Source: Oribacterium parvum ACB1 (GTDB taxonomy: Bacteria; Bacillota; Clostridia; Lachnospirales; Lachnospiraceae). Taken from it: a stretch of 64,000 bases of DNA. Location: positions 2,042,501 to 2,106,500 of the forward strand of contig NZ_KE148312.1 of the NCBI RefSeq assembly GCF_000238055.2. Reading direction: 5' to 3'. Both the position numbers and the translations under genes were made by a program. Under the pieces are notes generated by a model that saw only the letters and a program-made list of their open reading frames with translations, did not search any database and was not told the origin of the DNA. Of the stretch, positions 12,072 through 63,499 are shown piece after piece; position 1 is the first letter of the stretch, and the number at the start of each line of letters is the position of its first letter.

Positions 12072-12275
12072 TTACAAGTCCTGCTTTATGACGTAATGGC
12101 CAAACCAATTCGAACCAACGTGTTCAATCTTTCCATCACTCATAAGACGCTTTAATGCTCTTTGAACCGTCCTTGGAAAGGAACCTAGTATCTCAGCAAG
12201 TCCAGCAGCTGATTGATTGCCATCTTCCTTCAGCAAATCAAATAGCTTCTCATCCAATATTTTTTCTTTGTTCAT
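12072..12275 (-). CDS. Small winged-helix protein, possibly a remnant
   Basis: A 67-residue chain (from ATG 12275) that is almost entirely a winged-helix fold: AAGLAEILGSFPRTVQRALKR reads as the helix-turn-helix and KIEHVGSNWFGHYVI as the wing. Such modules are typical of the C-terminus of larger RecG-like AlbA-type regulators, so this could be a stand-alone regulator or the surviving end of one. The ribosome site is weak (GGTG). It begins eight bases after the stop of the membrane-protein gene and is the last gene of that operon, so it may regulate it. A longer frame to 12338 would overlap the upstream gene. Confidence 0.55.
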   Translation of the reverse strand: MNKEKILDEKLFDLLKEDGNQSAAGLAEILGSFPRTVQRALKRLMSDGKIEHVGSNWFGHYVIKQDL

Positions 12276-12282
12276 TACACCA

Positions 12283-13173
12283 TTATGTGAAAGGTTTATT
12301 TTTCGTTGCATTTTCATATATGTATTGAAGTTCTTCAAACTGATCAGTAGTGAAAATTGTTTTTGTAATATATTCCGTTTTTTCTCTAAAACTATTCTTT
12401 TTGATCGAAAAATGAAAATAAATAAATCTCTCCCCTTTCAGAAAAGTATCCTTTACCATATAATAACACTCTTCCATCTCTTCATCCTTGCTCTTATCAG
12501 TGTAATGATTCAATGTAATATACCTAGGATTATTCTTTAAGATAATATCTTCCGGTTTAATCCTATAATTATCATCTCTATACCTAATAAAAAATAGTTT
12601 TAGGATAATGATGTATATCATATATAATGAGGCTATACCCCATAAGATATCTATAGTTGTGTTCGGGGCTTTAGGAACGTCAAAAGTATTGTTTAAAAGA
12701 TTTTTAGAAAAACAATACACAATCCAAAAATCTGTAAGAATAAACAATAAAAATCTATATAATCTATTTTGGGCTGTAATATAATTGGATGTATATACAA
12801 ACCCATCAGAACTATAACTTTTCTCCTCCCATCCAATTATATGAAAAAAACCATAATAACCGACGCACAGAATTAACATGCCAAGAACGATAATTCCTAT
12901 AGCCACAAATACTATATTAACGTAAAGTATGCTTCCAATTGTCAAAATGCTTCTTAAAACAATTTTAATGATACTATCAAGATATACAGGTATGCTGGCA
13001 CTTATATTAAAATCATTAAAAATATTAGCGTTATAGAGATATAAAATATTGATAATATAAAATATAGGAACTAGAATATTACAAAAAACAGAATTATAAT
13101 AATTCCATACTTTTCCCTTCGTCTCTCTCTCTTCTATTCCAACAATAGAAAACAAAACGTCCGTAACGCTCAT
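12283..13173 (-). CDS. Unknown multi-spanning membrane protein in VWA/PurA-like operon
   Basis: I do not recognise this family. The 296-residue chain has about six hydrophobic segments between residues 25 and 210, then a soluble C-terminal part of about 85 residues rich in Lys and Glu. The ribosome site GGAGGAGAC precedes the ATG, and the gene starts 19 bases after the PurA-like stop. Its place as the fourth gene of the kinase-like/VWA/PurA-like operon suggests a membrane output or sensor for that group, which is inference. It is more AT-rich than its upstream neighbours, which may mark separate origin. Confidence 0.7.
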   Translation of the reverse strand: MSVTDVLFSIVGIEERETKGKVWNYYNSVFCNILVPIFYIINILYLYNANIFNDFNISASIPVYLDSIIKIVLRSILTIGSILYVNIVFVAIGIIVLGMLILCVGYYGFFHIIGWEEKSYSSDGFVYTSNYITAQNRLYRFLLFILTDFWIVYCFSKNLLNNTFDVPKAPNTTIDILWGIASLYMIYIIILKLFFIRYRDDNYRIKPEDIILKNNPRYITLNHYTDKSKDEEMEECYYMVKDTFLKGERFIYFHFSIKKNSFREKTEYITKTIFTTDQFEELQYIYENATKNKPFT

Positions 13174-13192
13174 GTCTCCTCCAATAATATAT

Positions 13193-14392
13193 TTATTTCC
13201 ATTCAGTATCTATAATACATTGAATTCCTAACTCCTCTCCTGCTTTTTGAAGAGTTTCAATGGGAATACTCCCCTTTTCAAAGTATAGTTGATTCCCAGT
13301 TTCCGACAACTGGGTAACAAGAATAGAGAGCTCCGGGGATTCTTTCGTCTTTATCTGTTCTTTACGATCTAAATTATTTAAGGAATCTCTATCCCTTAGT
13401 ACCGGCGCAAAAAAGGCTTCCAAACCCTCATGCTTTGCATAGCGTAAAGTTCCCTGCCATTCATTAGGCTGATTGGTCAGGTCCTCTCCCACTCCGGGAA
13501 GTTCAGAACGCTTCACTTCGCAGGGTAAAGGGCCATTTCCGTGACGAGTGATATAAGGGCGAGTCACATAGATAGCTTCCTCTAAAGATAATCCTCGTTT
13601 TTCTAAAAAGATGGTCGGATTATGGATTCCGGTTTTTGAAGAAGTCAAATGGGGAGCATAGGCTTCATAGTCCTGATCCAAAAGCAAGCCCTGTCCTGTC
13701 TCAAAAATCAAATTCTTAAACTCCTCCAGCCATTTTCTATCCGCATCTACTAAAGTCAGTAGCTTCACATTATCTTTCACTTCTACCACAAAGTTTTCCA
13801 GTACCGTCTCATTATGCAGCATCTCATAGTAGGGATTCGAGGAATATATTCCCAAGACTTTTGCTCTTCTTTCCGTATATTCTCTTCGAATCTGCTTTAA
13901 ACGGTCTAAAAAATCTTGCTTAGTCCATGTAACAAGCTCTTCCAAGGTAATTCTGTATCCGGCGGCATTTCGCTGCACACATTCCTCTATGCCCATACCG
14001 CAGGAACCATGGCGATTCTTGTCTCTGGCAACTTCTGCCCCCATATTTAAAAGTACATCATCTATGGTGGTTCCTTGTGCATTTTTTTCAGAATAAAGAA
14101 TGGGCTGAAAGCCGAAGAGCTCCGTAAACGCTTTCACTTCATTGCGCAGCTGAAACAAATCCGGCATAAAGCTATCAGCAAATAAAGTAGGCACATGGTA
14201 CTCCGCTCCGGCGCCAATCTGATGATGGATAAAACGCCATTTTCCTTCCGGATCTTCTACCGTGTGCCCAGCCTGTCCGCCGCCATTATGTTTAATAATC
14301 AGCGCATTCTTAAGGGATGAAGCAAGACGACTGCAAGCAAAGCCCTTTCCCTCATCCCCGAAATTCTTGCCGATAACCGCAATTGTTCTCAT
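13193..14392 (-). CDS. Divergent adenylosuccinate synthetase-like protein
   Basis: A 399-residue PurA homologue, distinct from the canonical purA at 62213-63499. Visible motifs are NFGDEGKG (residues 10-17, catalytic Asp13), QAGHTV (His43, the second catalytic residue), FETGQGLLLDQDY followed by LTSSKTG, and YVTRPYITRHGNGPLPCE. Family Asp and His are kept, so GTP-dependent ligation of aspartate to a purine nucleotide is plausible; phage PurZ enzymes are reported to replace that Asp. IMP-site segments differ, so the substrate may differ too. The ATG overlaps the VWA stop (ATGA), indicating coupled translation. A second copy in a kinase/VWA operon suggests a conflict or signalling role rather than purine synthesis. 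Confidence 0.85.
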   Translation of the reverse strand: MRTIAVIGKNFGDEGKGFACSRLASSLKNALIIKHNGGGQAGHTVEDPEGKWRFIHHQIGAGAEYHVPTLFADSFMPDLFQLRNEVKAFTELFGFQPILYSEKNAQGTTIDDVLLNMGAEVARDKNRHGSCGMGIEECVQRNAAGYRITLEELVTWTKQDFLDRLKQIRREYTERRAKVLGIYSSNPYYEMLHNETVLENFVVEVKDNVKLLTLVDADRKWLEEFKNLIFETGQGLLLDQDYEAYAPHLTSSKTGIHNPTIFLEKRGLSLEEAIYVTRPYITRHGNGPLPCEVKRSELPGVGEDLTNQPNEWQGTLRYAKHEGLEAFFAPVLRDRDSLNNLDRKEQIKTKESPELSILVTQLSETGNQLYFEKGSIPIETLQKAGEELGIQCIIDTEWK

Positions 14393-15273
14393 AGAAAAAT
14401 ATCTTCATCTCTTTGCAAGGAAAGCTGTGCTAATGCCGCGCTAATCACAGGACGATTGATTTCATCCCACCTCCCAAGAACTTCCTCTAAAGCAGCACCC
14501 TTTTGTAACTGAATGGCACTGATAATGATTTCCGGAAGACAGGAAATATCCTGTCGTGCCAGTACGATACAATGCCCCGGAAGCAGCTTCTCATTTTCCT
14601 GGCTGTCTCCGCCAATCATGATATGGAAAACATGGAAGGATTGCTTTACTTCATTCAGCAAATCCTCTTTGGTGACAGTCCTTTCGATTTCATCTCCTAT
14701 AACCCGGGAAATCGTTTCTCCCACCGAATCACCGCGAATCTCTGCCATATCTCCGATGGTAAAGAGAAAGCCCTTTTGCTGTCTTTTCTTCACCGCATCA
14801 ATATTGGTATGGCGGGATAAGAATTCCCAAAGACAGGTAGGTACCACCTGACCACTGCCATGATTTTCAAAGTAAATGTCTAAGAGTTGCTCGGCGATAC
14901 GAATATCCGACTCAAACTGGGTGACCTGTAGAGGGGATGCATCCTGAAAATCTCCGTAAGCCGCACACATTAGGGCCGGATCCGCCACTGAGCCGGTGGA
15001 ATAAAGCTTGGTAATCAGCTCATTTAAGGCGCCCGCTGCCAACTCCACCGCAAGATAACCCATGGAGCCGGTCACATCCAAGCCCACAACGATAGGGGTT
15101 GTATTGGGATGCTCCTCGGAGTCGAAACATTCTCTGGTTCCGATGAATTTCGGATTCATCTTGGGATTACATTCTCTTCTTGTAAATACTTCTTCTACTC
15201 TCTGCCCATTGGACAGCTTTCTACTGCTTTTCAATTTCTGCCAATCTGATGCTGAATAACTACCGTATCCCAT
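14389..15273 (-). CDS. von Willebrand factor A domain protein
   Basis: A 294-residue cytoplasmic protein with a VWA domain from about residue 60 onward. The metal-binding MIDAS is DVTGSMG after VVGLDV, with a later Asp in FTIGDMAEIRGDS. The N-terminal about 55 residues (MGYGSYSASDWQKLKSS, FTRRECNPKMNPKFIGTRE) are a conserved-looking linker I cannot name. It begins ten bases after the zinc-ribbon/kinase-like stop with a strong AGGAGG site and overlaps the PurA-like start. VWA proteins next to kinase-like partners recall TerY-type stress modules, but Ter genes themselves are absent here. Confidence 0.85.
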   Translation of the reverse strand: MGYGSYSASDWQKLKSSRKLSNGQRVEEVFTRRECNPKMNPKFIGTRECFDSEEHPNTTPIVVGLDVTGSMGYLAVELAAGALNELITKLYSTGSVADPALMCAAYGDFQDASPLQVTQFESDIRIAEQLLDIYFENHGSGQVVPTCLWEFLSRHTNIDAVKKRQQKGFLFTIGDMAEIRGDSVGETISRVIGDEIERTVTKEDLLNEVKQSFHVFHIMIGGDSQENEKLLPGHCIVLARQDISCLPEIIISAIQLQKGAALEEVLGRWDEINRPVISAALAQLSLQRDEDIFL

Positions 15274-15282
15274 ATTTTCCTC

Positions 15283-16152
15283 CTATTTCATCTTCACAAA
15301 ATGATGACCGCCAAAGCCCTCTTCAATCACCTTATCCCATGTGGCAAAGTCCTGAAAAGCATCCCCTTTCGGCTCTGCCAATAAGAAATCCTCCAAAAGA
15401 GCCGGACTATGAATATTTTCAGCCACGGATTTTGCGGTCTTTCGTAAATCCAATAAATCCTGATTGCTATGCTTCCTTTCCACATTTCTCCAATCCCCGA
15501 AGAGCATCCCCTCATGGGTCAGGGAATTCACAAAAAGTGTGGACGCCGTAATATCCCCGTGCTGAAGCTCCGAATACTCTAGGGCGCAACATATATTTTC
15601 CATCCGAGAAATCACCCAGGCCAAATGCTCCGAAGCAAAGGGGGCAAAGACCTCCGCAGGATAAAAATAGGGCTTTCTTGTGAAAATAAGACAAAGCTTC
15701 CCGGCATCTAAAGCAATCTTCGACTTTAACATCGGAAAGCACCTTGATAACTTTACATCCGCTTCCGGAAAGCTAAGACGTGCTAAGCCCAGCATAAAAG
15801 CATTTGCCCCATCCTCTCGGTCAAAGATATAGACTACTGACTCCCGACACAAGTAGCAGACCATCTCCGGATAATGATAACGATCCATATAGGAAAGAGT
15901 TAGATTTTTACCATTTACCATTAGGTATGTGGCTGTGCCCAGCTCTTCCCATAAAGTATCACCACTATAGTCATTTTCCTTCTCGCTGGCCTTCGCCTTG
16001 TAATAGGCCAAAAGCTTCTTTCGAAACTCATGATTCCCTTTGAATTCCGCATCGGACAGGAAGGCTCTTGCCCCACAGTAAGGACACTGAAATCCGCCGG
16101 CACTGCCAAGTTCCAGCTGTGCGCCACATTGCTTACAACGATAGCTAATCAT
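15283..16152 (-). CDS. Zinc-ribbon protein with kinase-like domain
   Basis: The 289-residue chain starts with a zinc ribbon (Cys6, Cys9, Cys23, Cys26). The remainder looks like a divergent protein-kinase-like domain: the segment near residue 197 reads LQHGDITASTLFVN, matching the HGDxxxxN catalytic loop with Thr in place of the usual Asn, and GMLFGDWRN resembles the DFG metal-binding region. It may therefore be weakly active or a pseudokinase. ATG 16152 follows AAAGGAGG, though only three bases separate them; a longer form to 16173 lacks a ribosome site. It is the first gene of the operon and is separated from the VWA gene by ten bases. Confidence 0.72.
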   Translation of the reverse strand: MISYRCKQCGAQLELGSAGGFQCPYCGARAFLSDAEFKGNHEFRKKLLAYYKAKASEKENDYSGDTLWEELGTATYLMVNGKNLTLSYMDRYHYPEMVCYLCRESVVYIFDREDGANAFMLGLARLSFPEADVKLSRCFPMLKSKIALDAGKLCLIFTRKPYFYPAEVFAPFASEHLAWVISRMENICCALEYSELQHGDITASTLFVNSLTHEGMLFGDWRNVERKHSNQDLLDLRKTAKSVAENIHSPALLEDFLLAEPKGDAFQDFATWDKVIEEGFGGHHFVKMK

Positions 16153-16219
16153 AGACCTCCTTTGACGATCCATAACTGTTAAGAAATTTCAAAAAAAAGC
16201 AAAGTTTAATCACAGAGGA

Positions 16220-16225
16220 AGTATA
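16220..16225 (-). promoter_or_regulatory. Candidate extended -10 promoter of the kinase-like/VWA operon
   Basis: On the minus strand TGCTATACT gives an extended -10 box about 70 bases before the first ATG. The -35 position (ATGCAC) is poor, so the call rests on the -10 and its place. Confidence 0.45.
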
Positions 16226-16263
16226 GCACAGATTATTTTCAAGTGCATAGAAATGTATTACAT

Positions 16264-16310
16264 TATAGCCTCTTGCCGGAGTCATATTAAACTCACGCCA
16301 AGAGGCTATA
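16264..16310 (-). other. Hairpin between DUF3791 gene and the VWA operon
   Basis: A 12-bp perfect inverted repeat (TATAGCCTCTTG with CAAGAGGCTATA) encloses a 23-base loop. It lies downstream of the DUF3791 stop and could help end that transcript, but there is no T run on the minus strand. Confidence 0.5.
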
Positions 16311-16346: not shown

Positions 16347-16586
16347 TTATATCACCAGCAATCTATACGGATTTCCGGCTATTTCCTCTTTTAAAATATC
16401 CAGGATAGATTCCCTGGATTCCAGATAAAGGTCTGTTTCTTCATCCATCAAGGCTGCATACACAGTGGTTTTCATCAAAAATTCAACTGCCTCATCTCTT
16501 GAATATCCCTTATCTTTCATTATATATTCCACAAGAAATACAGCTATATTTCGCATAGCTTTTTTCTGATCCGCACTCGTAATCAT
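16347..16586 (-). CDS. DUF3791-type small protein (second copy)
   Basis: A 79-residue, mostly helical acidic protein (AVFLVEYIMKDKGYSRDEAV, then a Glu/Asp-rich half) of the DUF3791 type that accompanies DUF3990 genes in Clostridia. Its ATG overlaps the DUF3990 stop as TAATG, so the pair is probably translated together. It may be the cognate partner or antidote of the DUF3990 protein, which is inference from linkage. Assignment is from remembered family patterns. Confidence 0.65.
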   Translation of the reverse strand: MITSADQKKAMRNIAVFLVEYIMKDKGYSRDEAVEFLMKTTVYAALMDEETDLYLESRESILDILKEEIAGNPYRLLVI

Positions 16587-17140
16587 TATTCAATCACCTG
16601 CCTTTTCACTTTATCAAAGCTTAGCGTCTTTACTGCTTCCTGCGTTCTAAAAAAATACTGCTTGGGAAGATTTTCCGGTTTTAATTCAGCAATAAGCTTT
16701 TCACATACTTCATCAGAATATTCCAATTCTTCCAGCTCATCATAGTACTCATTAATTATTGTAGTAGTTTCAGCATCAGCCGTTGGACCTATCACAATGT
16801 CCATATCATGTGCACATCCATCACATCTACGATTCTTAAGTATAAACCTAAGCCACTCTTTATCCGCTTTCTCAAACACCTTAAGCTTTAAACCTCTTGT
16901 GTCTTCATTGAAAAGAAGATTGTATCTATATGCTTGTATAGGCTGGAACTTTATGTTTTTCTTGTTTTTGAGAAAACTTTGACGTTTTTCTGCAATATAT
17001 TTATTTCTAATTGCAAGTCTTTCTGCATGTGATGGAACCGCAGTAGCATAAAATCCTTTACCAAAATCTTTGTAGCCTTTTCCTGCTGAAGGATCTATGC
17101 TATCAAACAAGTATATTGAACCATGATATAAAGGCTTCAA
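16586..17140 (-). CDS. DUF3990 protein (ADP-ribosyltransferase-like)
   Basis: A 184-residue protein opening LYHGSIYLFDSIDPSAGKGYKDFGKGFYAT; the YHGS and DFGKGFY elements are the hallmark of DUF3990, placed in the ADP-ribosyltransferase fold group. The start is TTG 17140, overlapping the stop of the first DUF3791 gene (ATTGA). It is sandwiched between two DUF3791 genes with overlaps at both ends, a tight three-gene unit that looks like a toxin-antitoxin or effector module. The enzymatic target is unknown and the toxin role is inferred. Confidence 0.75.
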   Translation of the reverse strand: MKPLYHGSIYLFDSIDPSAGKGYKDFGKGFYATAVPSHAERLAIRNKYIAEKRQSFLKNKKNIKFQPIQAYRYNLLFNEDTRGLKLKVFEKADKEWLRFILKNRRCDGCAHDMDIVIGPTADAETTTIINEYYDELEELEYSDEVCEKLIAELKPENLPKQYFFRTQEAVKTLSFDKVKRQVIE

Positions 17141-62212: not shown

Positions 62213-63499
62213 CTAAATCTTCGGAGTTCTCTTTAACATTTCATGTCTTTCGGGACCATTGGAAACCATGGTAATCGGTACTTCAAGCTCCTTTTCAATA
62301 AAGTCAATATAATCCTTACACTCCTTCGGTAATTCCTCATAGTTTCGGATTCCGCGAATATCACAGTGCCAGCCCTTAAGAACGGTATATACCGGCTTAG
62401 CCTTACGAAGCAGGGGAGTAACAGGAAAGTCCTTTACTTCCTTTCCGTCAATCTCATAAGCGGTGCAAACCGGGATTTCTTCTAAGTAGCCTAAAGGATC
62501 CAGTACCGTTAAGGCTACCTCGGTTGCCCCCTGCAAAGCACAGCCGTAACGGGACGCTACCGCATCATACCAGCCGACTCTTCTCGGACGACCTGTTGTT
62601 GCGCCGTACTCCCCCTTGTCTCCTCCGCGCTTTCTAAGCTCCTCCGCTTCGTCTCCAAAGATTTCGGAAACGAATTCCCCTGCTCCTACAGCGGAAGAAT
62701 ATGCCTTGGTTACACAGACCACACTGCTGATGGCATAGGGTGGAATTCCCGCTCCTACAGCACCGAAAGAAGCCAAAGTATGGCTGGAAGTCACCATCGG
62801 GTAAATCCCGTGATCGGTATCCTTCATTGTCCCGAGCTGTCCCTCCAAGAGGATTTTCTTCCCTTCCTTGATTGCCTTTCTAAGGAAAAGGGAGGTATCG
62901 CAAAGATAAGGGCGAATCAGCTCTCTCTCATTCTTAAGCTCAGAAAGAACGGTATCGTAGTCAAGACCTTTCTTTCCGTAAAGGCTCTCAAAAAGGGCAT
63001 TTTTAATCTCCAAAATCTTCTTTAGCTGCTCCTCTAAAATATCATCGTAATACAGCTCGTTGACCTGCAGGCCGATTTTCGCATACTTATCGGAGAAAAA
63101 CGGTGCAATGCCGGACTTGGTGGATCCGTAGCTCTTTTTCCCCAGTCTTTCTTCTTCATACTCATCCTGTAAAATATGATAGGGCATCAAGACCTGTACT
63201 CGGTCGGAAATATAAATCTTCGGTGTCGGTACACCGGCTTCCTCCAAAGCATGAAGCTCCTTTAAGAACTTCTGAATATCCAGCGCCACGCCGTTTCCCA
63301 AGATGGAAGTGACCTTCGGATTGAAGACTCCACTTGGAAGTAGGTGCAAAGAAAACCTGCCATAACTATTAATAATGGTGTGTCCTGCATTGGCACCACC
63401 CTGGAAACGCACTACGACGTCTGCATTCTCTGCAAGATAATCCGTGATCTTTCCTTTTCCTTCATCTCCCCAGTTTGCACCGACTATTGCCTGTACCAT
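62213..63499 (-). CDS. purA: Adenylosuccinate synthetase (canonical)
   Basis: A 428-residue GTP-dependent enzyme joining aspartate to IMP for AMP synthesis. GANWGDEGKGKITDYL (catalytic Asp), NAGHTIIN (His), GTMKDTDHGIYPMVTSSHT and GEFVSEIFG are in the normal order. RPRRVGWYD lies in the nucleotide-binding C-terminal region. AAGGGG precedes the ATG. It ends 12 bases before the zinc-ribbon gene start. A separate, divergent PurA-like gene lies at 13193-14392. Confidence 0.97.
   Translation of the reverse strand: MVQAIVGANWGDEGKGKITDYLAENADVVVRFQGGANAGHTIINSYGRFSLHLLPSGVFNPKVTSILGNGVALDIQKFLKELHALEEAGVPTPKIYISDRVQVLMPYHILQDEYEEERLGKKSYGSTKSGIAPFFSDKYAKIGLQVNELYYDDILEEQLKKILEIKNALFESLYGKKGLDYDTVLSELKNERELIRPYLCDTSLFLRKAIKEGKKILLEGQLGTMKDTDHGIYPMVTSSHTLASFGAVGAGIPPYAISSVVCVTKAYSSAVGAGEFVSEIFGDEAEELRKRGGDKGEYGATTGRPRRVGWYDAVASRYGCALQGATEVALTVLDPLGYLEEIPVCTAYEIDGKEVKDFPVTPLLRKAKPVYTVLKGWHCDIRGIRNYEELPKECKDYIDFIEKELEVPITMVSNGPERHEMLKRTPKI

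Follow-up and report, generated by a model that had tools for sequence, protein, structure and literature searches.

The KIN-VWA-PUR Genes of Oribacterium parvum ACB1

A 64,000-nucleotide stretch of the Oribacterium parvum ACB1 genome (positions 2,042,501 to 2,106,500 of contig NZ_KE148312.1; hereafter the window, in which coordinates are given) carries on its minus strand a tightly packed group of genes encoding a kinase-fold protein (KIN), a von Willebrand A-like protein (VWA), and an adenylosuccinate synthetase paralogue (PUR). KIN, VWA, and PUR form a real conserved module, seemingly undescribed, with the following members:

15283..16152, minus strand: KIN, 289 amino acids, an N-terminal zinc ribbon and a protein kinase-fold (pseudokinase-like) domain, in an open reading frame (ORF) that opens at 16173 (basis: AlphaFold model of pLDDT 94, Foldseek kinase matches, family alignment, and a ribosome-binding site between two ATGs)

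14389..15273, minus strand: VWA, 294 amino acids, von Willebrand A-like with residues resembling a metal ion-dependent adhesion site (MIDAS) (basis: PHROG 2971, E 1.9e-39; invariant residues)

13193..14392, minus strand: PUR, 399 amino acids, an adenylosuccinate synthetase paralogue assigned to a third clade (basis: PF00709, E 4.7e-31; tree; active-site columns)

KIN and VWA are separated by 9 bp, VWA and PUR overlap in an ATGA, and 19 bp lie between PUR and a membrane-protein-like gene, which is followed by a small fifth ORF. A preliminary description of this DNA had recognized the packing, the overlap, and the 19-bp gap, but gave the KIN-VWA gap as 10 bp. The likely start of KIN is ATG 16152, rather than ATG 16173, because an AGGAGG lies between the two and many relatives begin with an MISFKC-like sequence. 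Canonical purA is present elsewhere in the window (62237-63490), and PUR is, as had been claimed, a second and divergent PurA-like enzyme.

Conservation and Host-Virus Exchange

Searching with VWA gave 216 unique loci (98 bacterial, 4 from named phages, and 114 on viral contigs), after duplicates (L022, L023, L025, and L192) were dropped and one locus was kept per identical VWA core; VWA is present at all of them by construction. In 190/216 loci PUR follows VWA on the same strand at a distance of no more than 600 bp, and at 4 of the other 26 the contig is too short there. KIN is directly upstream of VWA in 82/98 bacterial, 1/4 phage, and 43/114 viral loci, and wherever all three genes occur they lie on one strand (130/130). 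The set is found in Clostridia, Alpha- and Betaproteobacteria, Actinobacteria, and phages. Because unrelated bacteria and phages share these genes in one order, KIN-VWA-PUR is a same-strand set conserved far above chance, and the common gene order to which the preliminary description had looked is borne out.

Within the family sample, VWA has relatives in 10 of 199 other genomes, and in the phylum sample in none of 298 others. A scan of genome contigs confirmed at least 521 relatives; since only the best 80 of the 521 were used, the breadth of the set outside Lachnospiraceae is underestimated. Three viral scans gave 368, 333, and 333 relatives, and the best 80 of each were used. A tblastn search of 50,697 phage records matched PUR in 215 and VWA in 206, mainly mycobacteriophages (190 records under Mycobacterium and Mycolicibacterium for PUR, 189 for VWA) together with Rhizobium and Vibrio phages; the few PUR matches in Escherichia, Salmonella, Staphylococcus, and Enterococcus records may be canonical PurA.

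In a VWA tree of 117 rows, the sampled rows from loci with a zinc-ribbon KIN form one clade (support 100) that includes a single viral row, and rows from the J-domain and type-B loci described below interleave between phages and hosts. The tree holds at least nine changes between host and virus, with weak support on 43 of its 114 inner branches. The module of three proteins that the operon encodes is widespread and has been exchanged horizontally. A single comparison, of the window with locus L032 (66-80% amino acid identity, nonsynonymous divergence (dN) 0.14-0.26, synonymous sites near saturation), indicates purifying selection. At L052, L079, L083, L089, L092, and L100 the VWA gene is doubled or tripled between KIN and PUR.

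PUR as a Third Adenylosuccinate Synthetase-like Clade

The window PUR matches PF00709 and PHROG 1211 (E 5.7e-43) but scores 74.8 bits against the purA equivalog TIGR00184, well below the cut-off of 395.55. In a tree of 54 PUR, 6 PurA, and 5 PurZ/PurZ0 sequences, PUR forms a single clade (support 100/99) apart from both others; as judged from sequence, PUR is a third adenylosuccinate synthetase-like clade beside PurA and PurZ/PurZ0. An alignment of 67 members (66 chosen from the 130 listed, plus the window) retains the equivalents of Asp13, Lys16, His41, and Gln224 in 67/67 each. The PurA segment TTGRxRR is replaced by QGxLR[YF], whose Gln and Arg are likewise present in 67/67, and the guanine motif reads T-[HC]-x-[DN] in most members. 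In E. coli PurA, Arg303 and Arg305 of the TTGRxRR segment hold the aspartate; this and the other residue roles are general background. Because the catalytic residues are kept while the TTGRxRR and guanine motifs are altered, PUR probably retains catalysis with a changed substrate pair. The alignment thus portrays an enzyme of the adenylosuccinate synthetase fold with a putatively intact catalytic core and a rebuilt pocket for the amino donor and the nucleotide.

PHROG 1211 and record annotations label this clade 2-aminooxy adenylosuccinate synthetase. None of the 67 PUR sequences has the Ser13 typical of PurZ, and the label is therefore probably wrong. Among the annotated rows listed (40 of 215 for PUR, 40 of 206 for VWA), PUR is mostly called adenylosuccinate synthetase, PurA-like, or "2-aminooxy", and VWA mostly "hypothetical protein". 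The existing name of PUR in phage records is probably wrong at scale, since 190 mycobacteriophage records match PUR and the listed ones are mostly so named. In Vibrio phage Va1, a gene for an Rv2179c-like 3'-5' exoribonuclease directly follows PUR (L014:10095-10736).

VWA and KIN

VWA, the near-constant gene partner of PUR, has no Pfam or NCBIfam match in the window copy; its only family match is to PHROG 2971, annotated as of unknown function. Among 17 aligned sequences D66, S70, D108, and G174-D175 are invariant, residues that we take to be the MIDAS, in line with the earlier claim of a VWA protein with such a site.

KIN has no Pfam family above cut-off in the window copy. Its AlphaFold model (pLDDT 94.1) matches kinase folds in Foldseek, with E from 7e-7 to 3e-5 for the 50 matches listed and modest TM-scores of 0.34-0.49 by query length. 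The top match is the TraF N-terminal domain, and the matches include VRK3, BubR1, and STK40, which are presumably pseudokinases. The full catalytic triad (HRD-Asp, Asn, and DFG-Asp) is found in 0/92 aligned KIN sequences, an alignment that leaves out the KIN of phage I3 and Rhodococcus, and 46/92 have none of the three residues. Both Asp residues are present in 11/92, including the window KIN, which lacks the Asn. We therefore regard KIN as a protein of kinase fold without conserved catalytic residues, and as pseudokinase-like by sequence. The kinase-like domain described previously is accordingly supported as a fold, but not as a set of conserved kinase residues, and the window zinc ribbon is read from a CxxC...CxxC pattern.

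The N-terminal region of KIN varies. Zn_Ribbon_TF matches 34/92 KIN and PF00226 (J-domain) 23/92 (E up to 0.01 in each case, best J-domain E 5e-7), with individual J-domain scores that come close to the Pfam cut-off or fall short of it (27.6 for L117, where 27.8 is required; 16.0 for I3). KIN of the window's lineage has an N-terminal zinc ribbon and is not of the J-domain type. J-domain KIN occurs at many phage loci, in Alphaproteobacteria and Actinobacteria, and at three loci of the Lachnospiraceae family; the type was assigned by the HPD motif, so that HPD in 11/11 bacterial J-type loci is by construction. A separate zinc-ribbon version of KIN is found on a Variovorax plasmid, which the PUR tree groups with I3 and Rhodococcus.

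At type-B loci (34/118 phage or viral and three bacterial), KIN is absent and a Met-rich protein, mostly of 190-300 amino acids, is present instead; in the first locus set the two never occur together. The two sequence clusters of the type-B protein, cluster 1 (L017, L029-L031, and others) and cluster 4 (L014, L015, and others), are related to each other by profile comparison (97%). No Pfam family above cut-off was found in the three type-B proteins scanned, and an AlphaFold model is of low confidence (pLDDT 59). A further 37 viral loci have neither KIN nor the type-B protein.

Neighbouring Genes in Other Lineages

A Nudix gene lies within 4 kb at 11/11 bacterial J-type and 2/3 bacterial type-B loci. 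At 8 of these 13 loci (L018, L026-L030, L193, and L194) it carries an NrtR winged-helix domain, and at Rhodococcus L021 and Tsukamurella L195 it is a plain Nudix by Pfam, in a scan covering the bacterial Nudix genes other than those of L019, L197, and L198. Two patterns for the Nudix box recognized it in both type-B genes (L029 and L030) and in none of the 11 bacterial J-type loci; at L019 the Nudix gene is split over two ORFs. Among viral type-B loci, Nudix genes occur at 9/31 and NAMPT, 0.7-2.7 kb away, at 12/31. All seven long viral Nudix proteins scanned (five from type-B and two from J-type loci) are fusions of a cytidylyltransferase-like domain (CTP_transf_like) with NUDIX, which by this architecture we take to be NMNAT-like; the shorter protein of RHph_TM30 is NUDIX alone.

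The loci L087, L098, L101, and L104 share one arrangement: dnaK (called by eye) and dnaJ come first, a further gene follows, then KIN, VWA, and PUR, and finally a gene on the opposite strand and prmA. TROVE/Ro60-like genes lie near VWA-PUR at L014, L108, L159, L163, L186, L191, and others, including 7/37 viral loci with neither KIN nor the type-B protein. RNA ligase and Thg1 genes are each found at 4/41 viral J-type loci. Genes for a MoxR-type AAA protein, DUF5682, DUF4132, and VWA directly adjoin the Agrobacterium triad (L018:9465-16873).

Other Features of the Oribacterium Locus

The features flanking the three genes in the window are:

12283..13173, minus strand: membrane-protein-like gene, an orphan outside the conserved module, without relatives in genomes of the family or at other loci

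12072..12275, minus strand: winged-helix ORF, 67 amino acids from ATG 12275, outside the conserved module (PF13412 HTH_24, E 1.8e-6)

16262..16290, minus strand: candidate promoter TTAATA-17-TATAAT upstream of KIN, in a region where the number of such sites is not above chance

The membrane-protein-like gene is probably co-transcribed with KIN, VWA, and PUR. It matches no Pfam family above cut-off, and relatives are missing both from 149 other genomes of the family and from other triad loci. The winged-helix ORF, which from an alternative TTG start at 12338 would encode 88 amino acids, likewise has no relative adjoining other triads. We rejected both as members of the system, since neither is conserved beside any other triad: the set comprises three genes, not the five suggested initially. 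The idea of one promoter before the operon fared less well, with 13 sites found in the region against 12.7 expected, and sigma-70 promoters were discarded as operon evidence because their number is at chance level; the single site at 16290-16262 scores 10/12 and is well placed. Just upstream of KIN, within a cassette of small genes, lies a DUF3990 gene (16586-17140, minus strand; PF13151, E 7.8e-36; PADLOC candidate PDC-M13B, 8.3e-29) that has no relative at other loci.

Possible Role and Alternative Explanations

We tentatively propose that KIN-VWA-PUR is a scaffolded purine-ligase module, which would serve the modification or salvage of purine nucleotides under stress or phage infection. PUR would phosphorylate a 6-oxopurine with ATP or GTP and join an amine to C6, a chemistry shared with PurA and PurZ but with another substrate pair. 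KIN, as a pseudokinase adaptor, and VWA, by way of its MIDAS, would keep PUR within a complex and direct it to its target, and the J-domain forms of KIN may act through host Hsp70. A link of this purine role to NAD or ADP-ribose, at least in lineages with such neighbours, is suggested because Nudix/NrtR genes adjoin bacterial J-type and type-B loci and because NAMPT and NMNAT-like Nudix genes occur at part of the type-B phage loci; control of the module in some lineages might then be tied to NAD or ADP-ribose.

A more specific scheme, which we consider a long shot, is that PUR does not use free aspartate: VWA, whose MIDAS would bind an acidic side chain, and the J-domain or zinc-ribbon pseudokinase would present a protein or peptide amine, which PUR would couple to C6 of a purine nucleotide, either free or within an NAD-like dinucleotide. 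Such a reaction, if real, would amount to a new kind of covalent protein tagging with purines, common to phages and bacteria and tied to NAD or ADP-ribose in some lineages.

Several observations weigh against the proposed purine-ligase role. The window PUR has TQLS as its guanine motif, without the Asp, and an Asp at the HRD position in 22/92 KIN, including that of the window, may allow residual kinase activity. The NAD link rests on neighbourhood and fails in much of the family: within 4 kb, Nudix is found at 1/75 zinc-ribbon loci, the type to which the window copy belongs and which in the window lacks a Nudix neighbour, and at 0/8 bacterial loci with neither KIN nor the type-B protein. Among viruses, Nudix occurs at 4/41 J-type loci (one within 4 kb) and 0/37 loci with neither, and NAMPT at 0/41 and 2/37, respectively. 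The Nudix profile was built partly from the same loci and the rows are kin, such that the counts are not independent and the Fisher value for the association overstates independence; the 11 bacterial J-type loci correspond to about five lineages on the VWA tree. The arrangement beside dnaK is probably one event, because all four loci are alike.

Alternatively, the set could be a signalling switch like the TerY-P triad: KIN, as an active kinase, would regulate the enzyme by phosphorylating VWA or PUR, and the zinc ribbon would be a sensor of metal or nucleic acid. The kinase fold, the same type of part list (VWA, kinase fold, zinc ribbon, and third enzyme), the two Asp residues kept in 11/92 KIN including the window's, a Pkinase score for phage I3 gp270 (E 8.7e-9), and TerY_C matches in 2/92 KIN speak for such a switch. 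With no full catalytic triad in the 92 KIN, none of its residues in half of them, and no PP2C_2 match less than 100 kb from the triad on its contig in 16/16 genomes or records, we judge it unlikely. PUR might instead be a phage- or plasmid-borne PurA that raises the supply of adenine nucleotides, with VWA and KIN as assembly helpers. Nucleotide genes are common in phages, and PUR keeps the catalytic Asp, His, and Gln; its score far below the equivalog cut-off, separate clade, replacement of the TTGRxRR loop by QGxLR, near-constant pairing with VWA, and the canonical purA in the window genome make this explanation rather improbable. DNA base modification of the PurZ kind, yielding 2-aminoadenine or another hypermodified purine, draws on the name given to PUR in PHROG 1211 and in records, and is the explanation to which we give least credence: PurZ has Ser13 (in PMC12884076, as far as excerpted, and in 5/5 PurZ/PurZ0 here), where PUR has Asp in 67/67, the clades are separate, and PUR is present in bacterial genomes.

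A host antiphage defence system, taken later by phages as counter-defence, would fit the sporadic distribution (10/199 in the family, 0/298 in the phylum), the host-virus changes on the VWA tree, and the resemblance of the NrtR and vWA logic to predicted anti-ADP-ribosylation systems in excerpts of PMC9503650. Defence genes are not enriched in a hand-picked sample of 51 neighbour proteins, taken from 11 of 14 bacterial J-type and type-B loci (L193, L197, and L198 were left out and an insertion-sequence gene was dropped): six PADLOC families have a single member apiece, and most of the 25 Pfam families listed, out of 70, are housekeeping. We therefore rejected an association with defence islands for these loci, and no variable effector was noticed. 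PADLOC models gave no match to KIN, PUR, or the membrane protein at E up to 1, with a best E of 0.0057 for VWA. An antiphage origin thus seems doubtful. The location beside defence genes envisaged previously was not seen at the loci scanned, and of the nucleotide-based or antiphage role suggested there, the nucleotide part is plausible, with a partial link to NAD or ADP-ribose, while the lack of defence-gene enrichment and the carriage of the set by phages speak against the antiphage part. The purine-ligase proposal poses the question of what PUR joins to what, for which Mycobacterium smegmatis phages serve as models.

Comparison with Known Systems

We found no description of the triad in the passages obtained from the open-access literature, among them passages of PMC9476963, PMC9503650, PMC7824862, PMC4802629, PMC7159879, PMC10892097, PMC7139368, PMC8093824, PMC12884076, and PMC11090510. 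A table in PMC9476963 includes, without comment, phams 240 (serine/threonine kinase), 241 (HNH endonuclease), and 243 (PurA-like) of C1 mycobacteriophages. The candidate undescribed system of the preliminary description is thus conserved and, within these sources, not described; the observations made there hold for the most part, and their interpretation is supported in part.

The TerY-P triad consists of a TerY-like VWA, a PP2C, and a Ser/Thr kinase fused to a zinc ribbon (passages of PMC11090510). As had been noted early on, the present set is similar in its part list: a single operon encodes a VWA, a zinc-ribbon protein of kinase fold, and a further enzyme. In contrast to TerY-P, the third enzyme is a PurA paralogue, KIN has its ribbon at the N-terminus or a J-domain in its place and does not conserve the kinase residues, and the set is also phage-borne. 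PP2C_2 (PF13672, the one model used) matches in 12/16 module-bearing genomes or records, but nowhere within 100 kb on the module's contig (nearest about 105 kb). The set therefore resembles the TerY-P layout without a PP2C and, to judge from its residues, without an active kinase.

Systems centred on an ADP-ribosylglycohydrolase (ARG) combine a Nudix-HTH regulator, a vWA "chaperone", and a nucleotide-related enzyme (passages of PMC9503650). The Nudix-HTH regulator beside a vWA and a nucleotide-related enzyme is shared, whereas here the enzyme is PurA-like, the partner is a J-domain pseudokinase, and no ARG is nearby: PF03747 matches in 10/16 genomes or records, none within 90 kb of the module (nearest about 97 kb, below cut-off).

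With PurA, PUR shares the adenylosuccinate synthetase fold, the P-loop, and the Asp13, His41, and Gln224 equivalents, but differs in its separate clade, its score below the equivalog cut-off, its altered TTGRxRR and guanine motifs, and, at the loci examined, its nearly constant position beside VWA. PMC12884076 puts the viral homologues of PurA at 481, 147 of them phage PurZ, and its section 24 leaves the others undescribed. PUR is like PurZ/PurZ0 of Z-DNA phages in being a phage-borne adenylosuccinate synthetase paralogue with the same annotated name, and is distinguished from them by Asp13 in place of Ser13 and by its clade. PUR would thereby define a third adenylosuccinate synthetase branch, one associated with a scaffold protein and with a pseudokinase, and present in bacteria and large phages alike.

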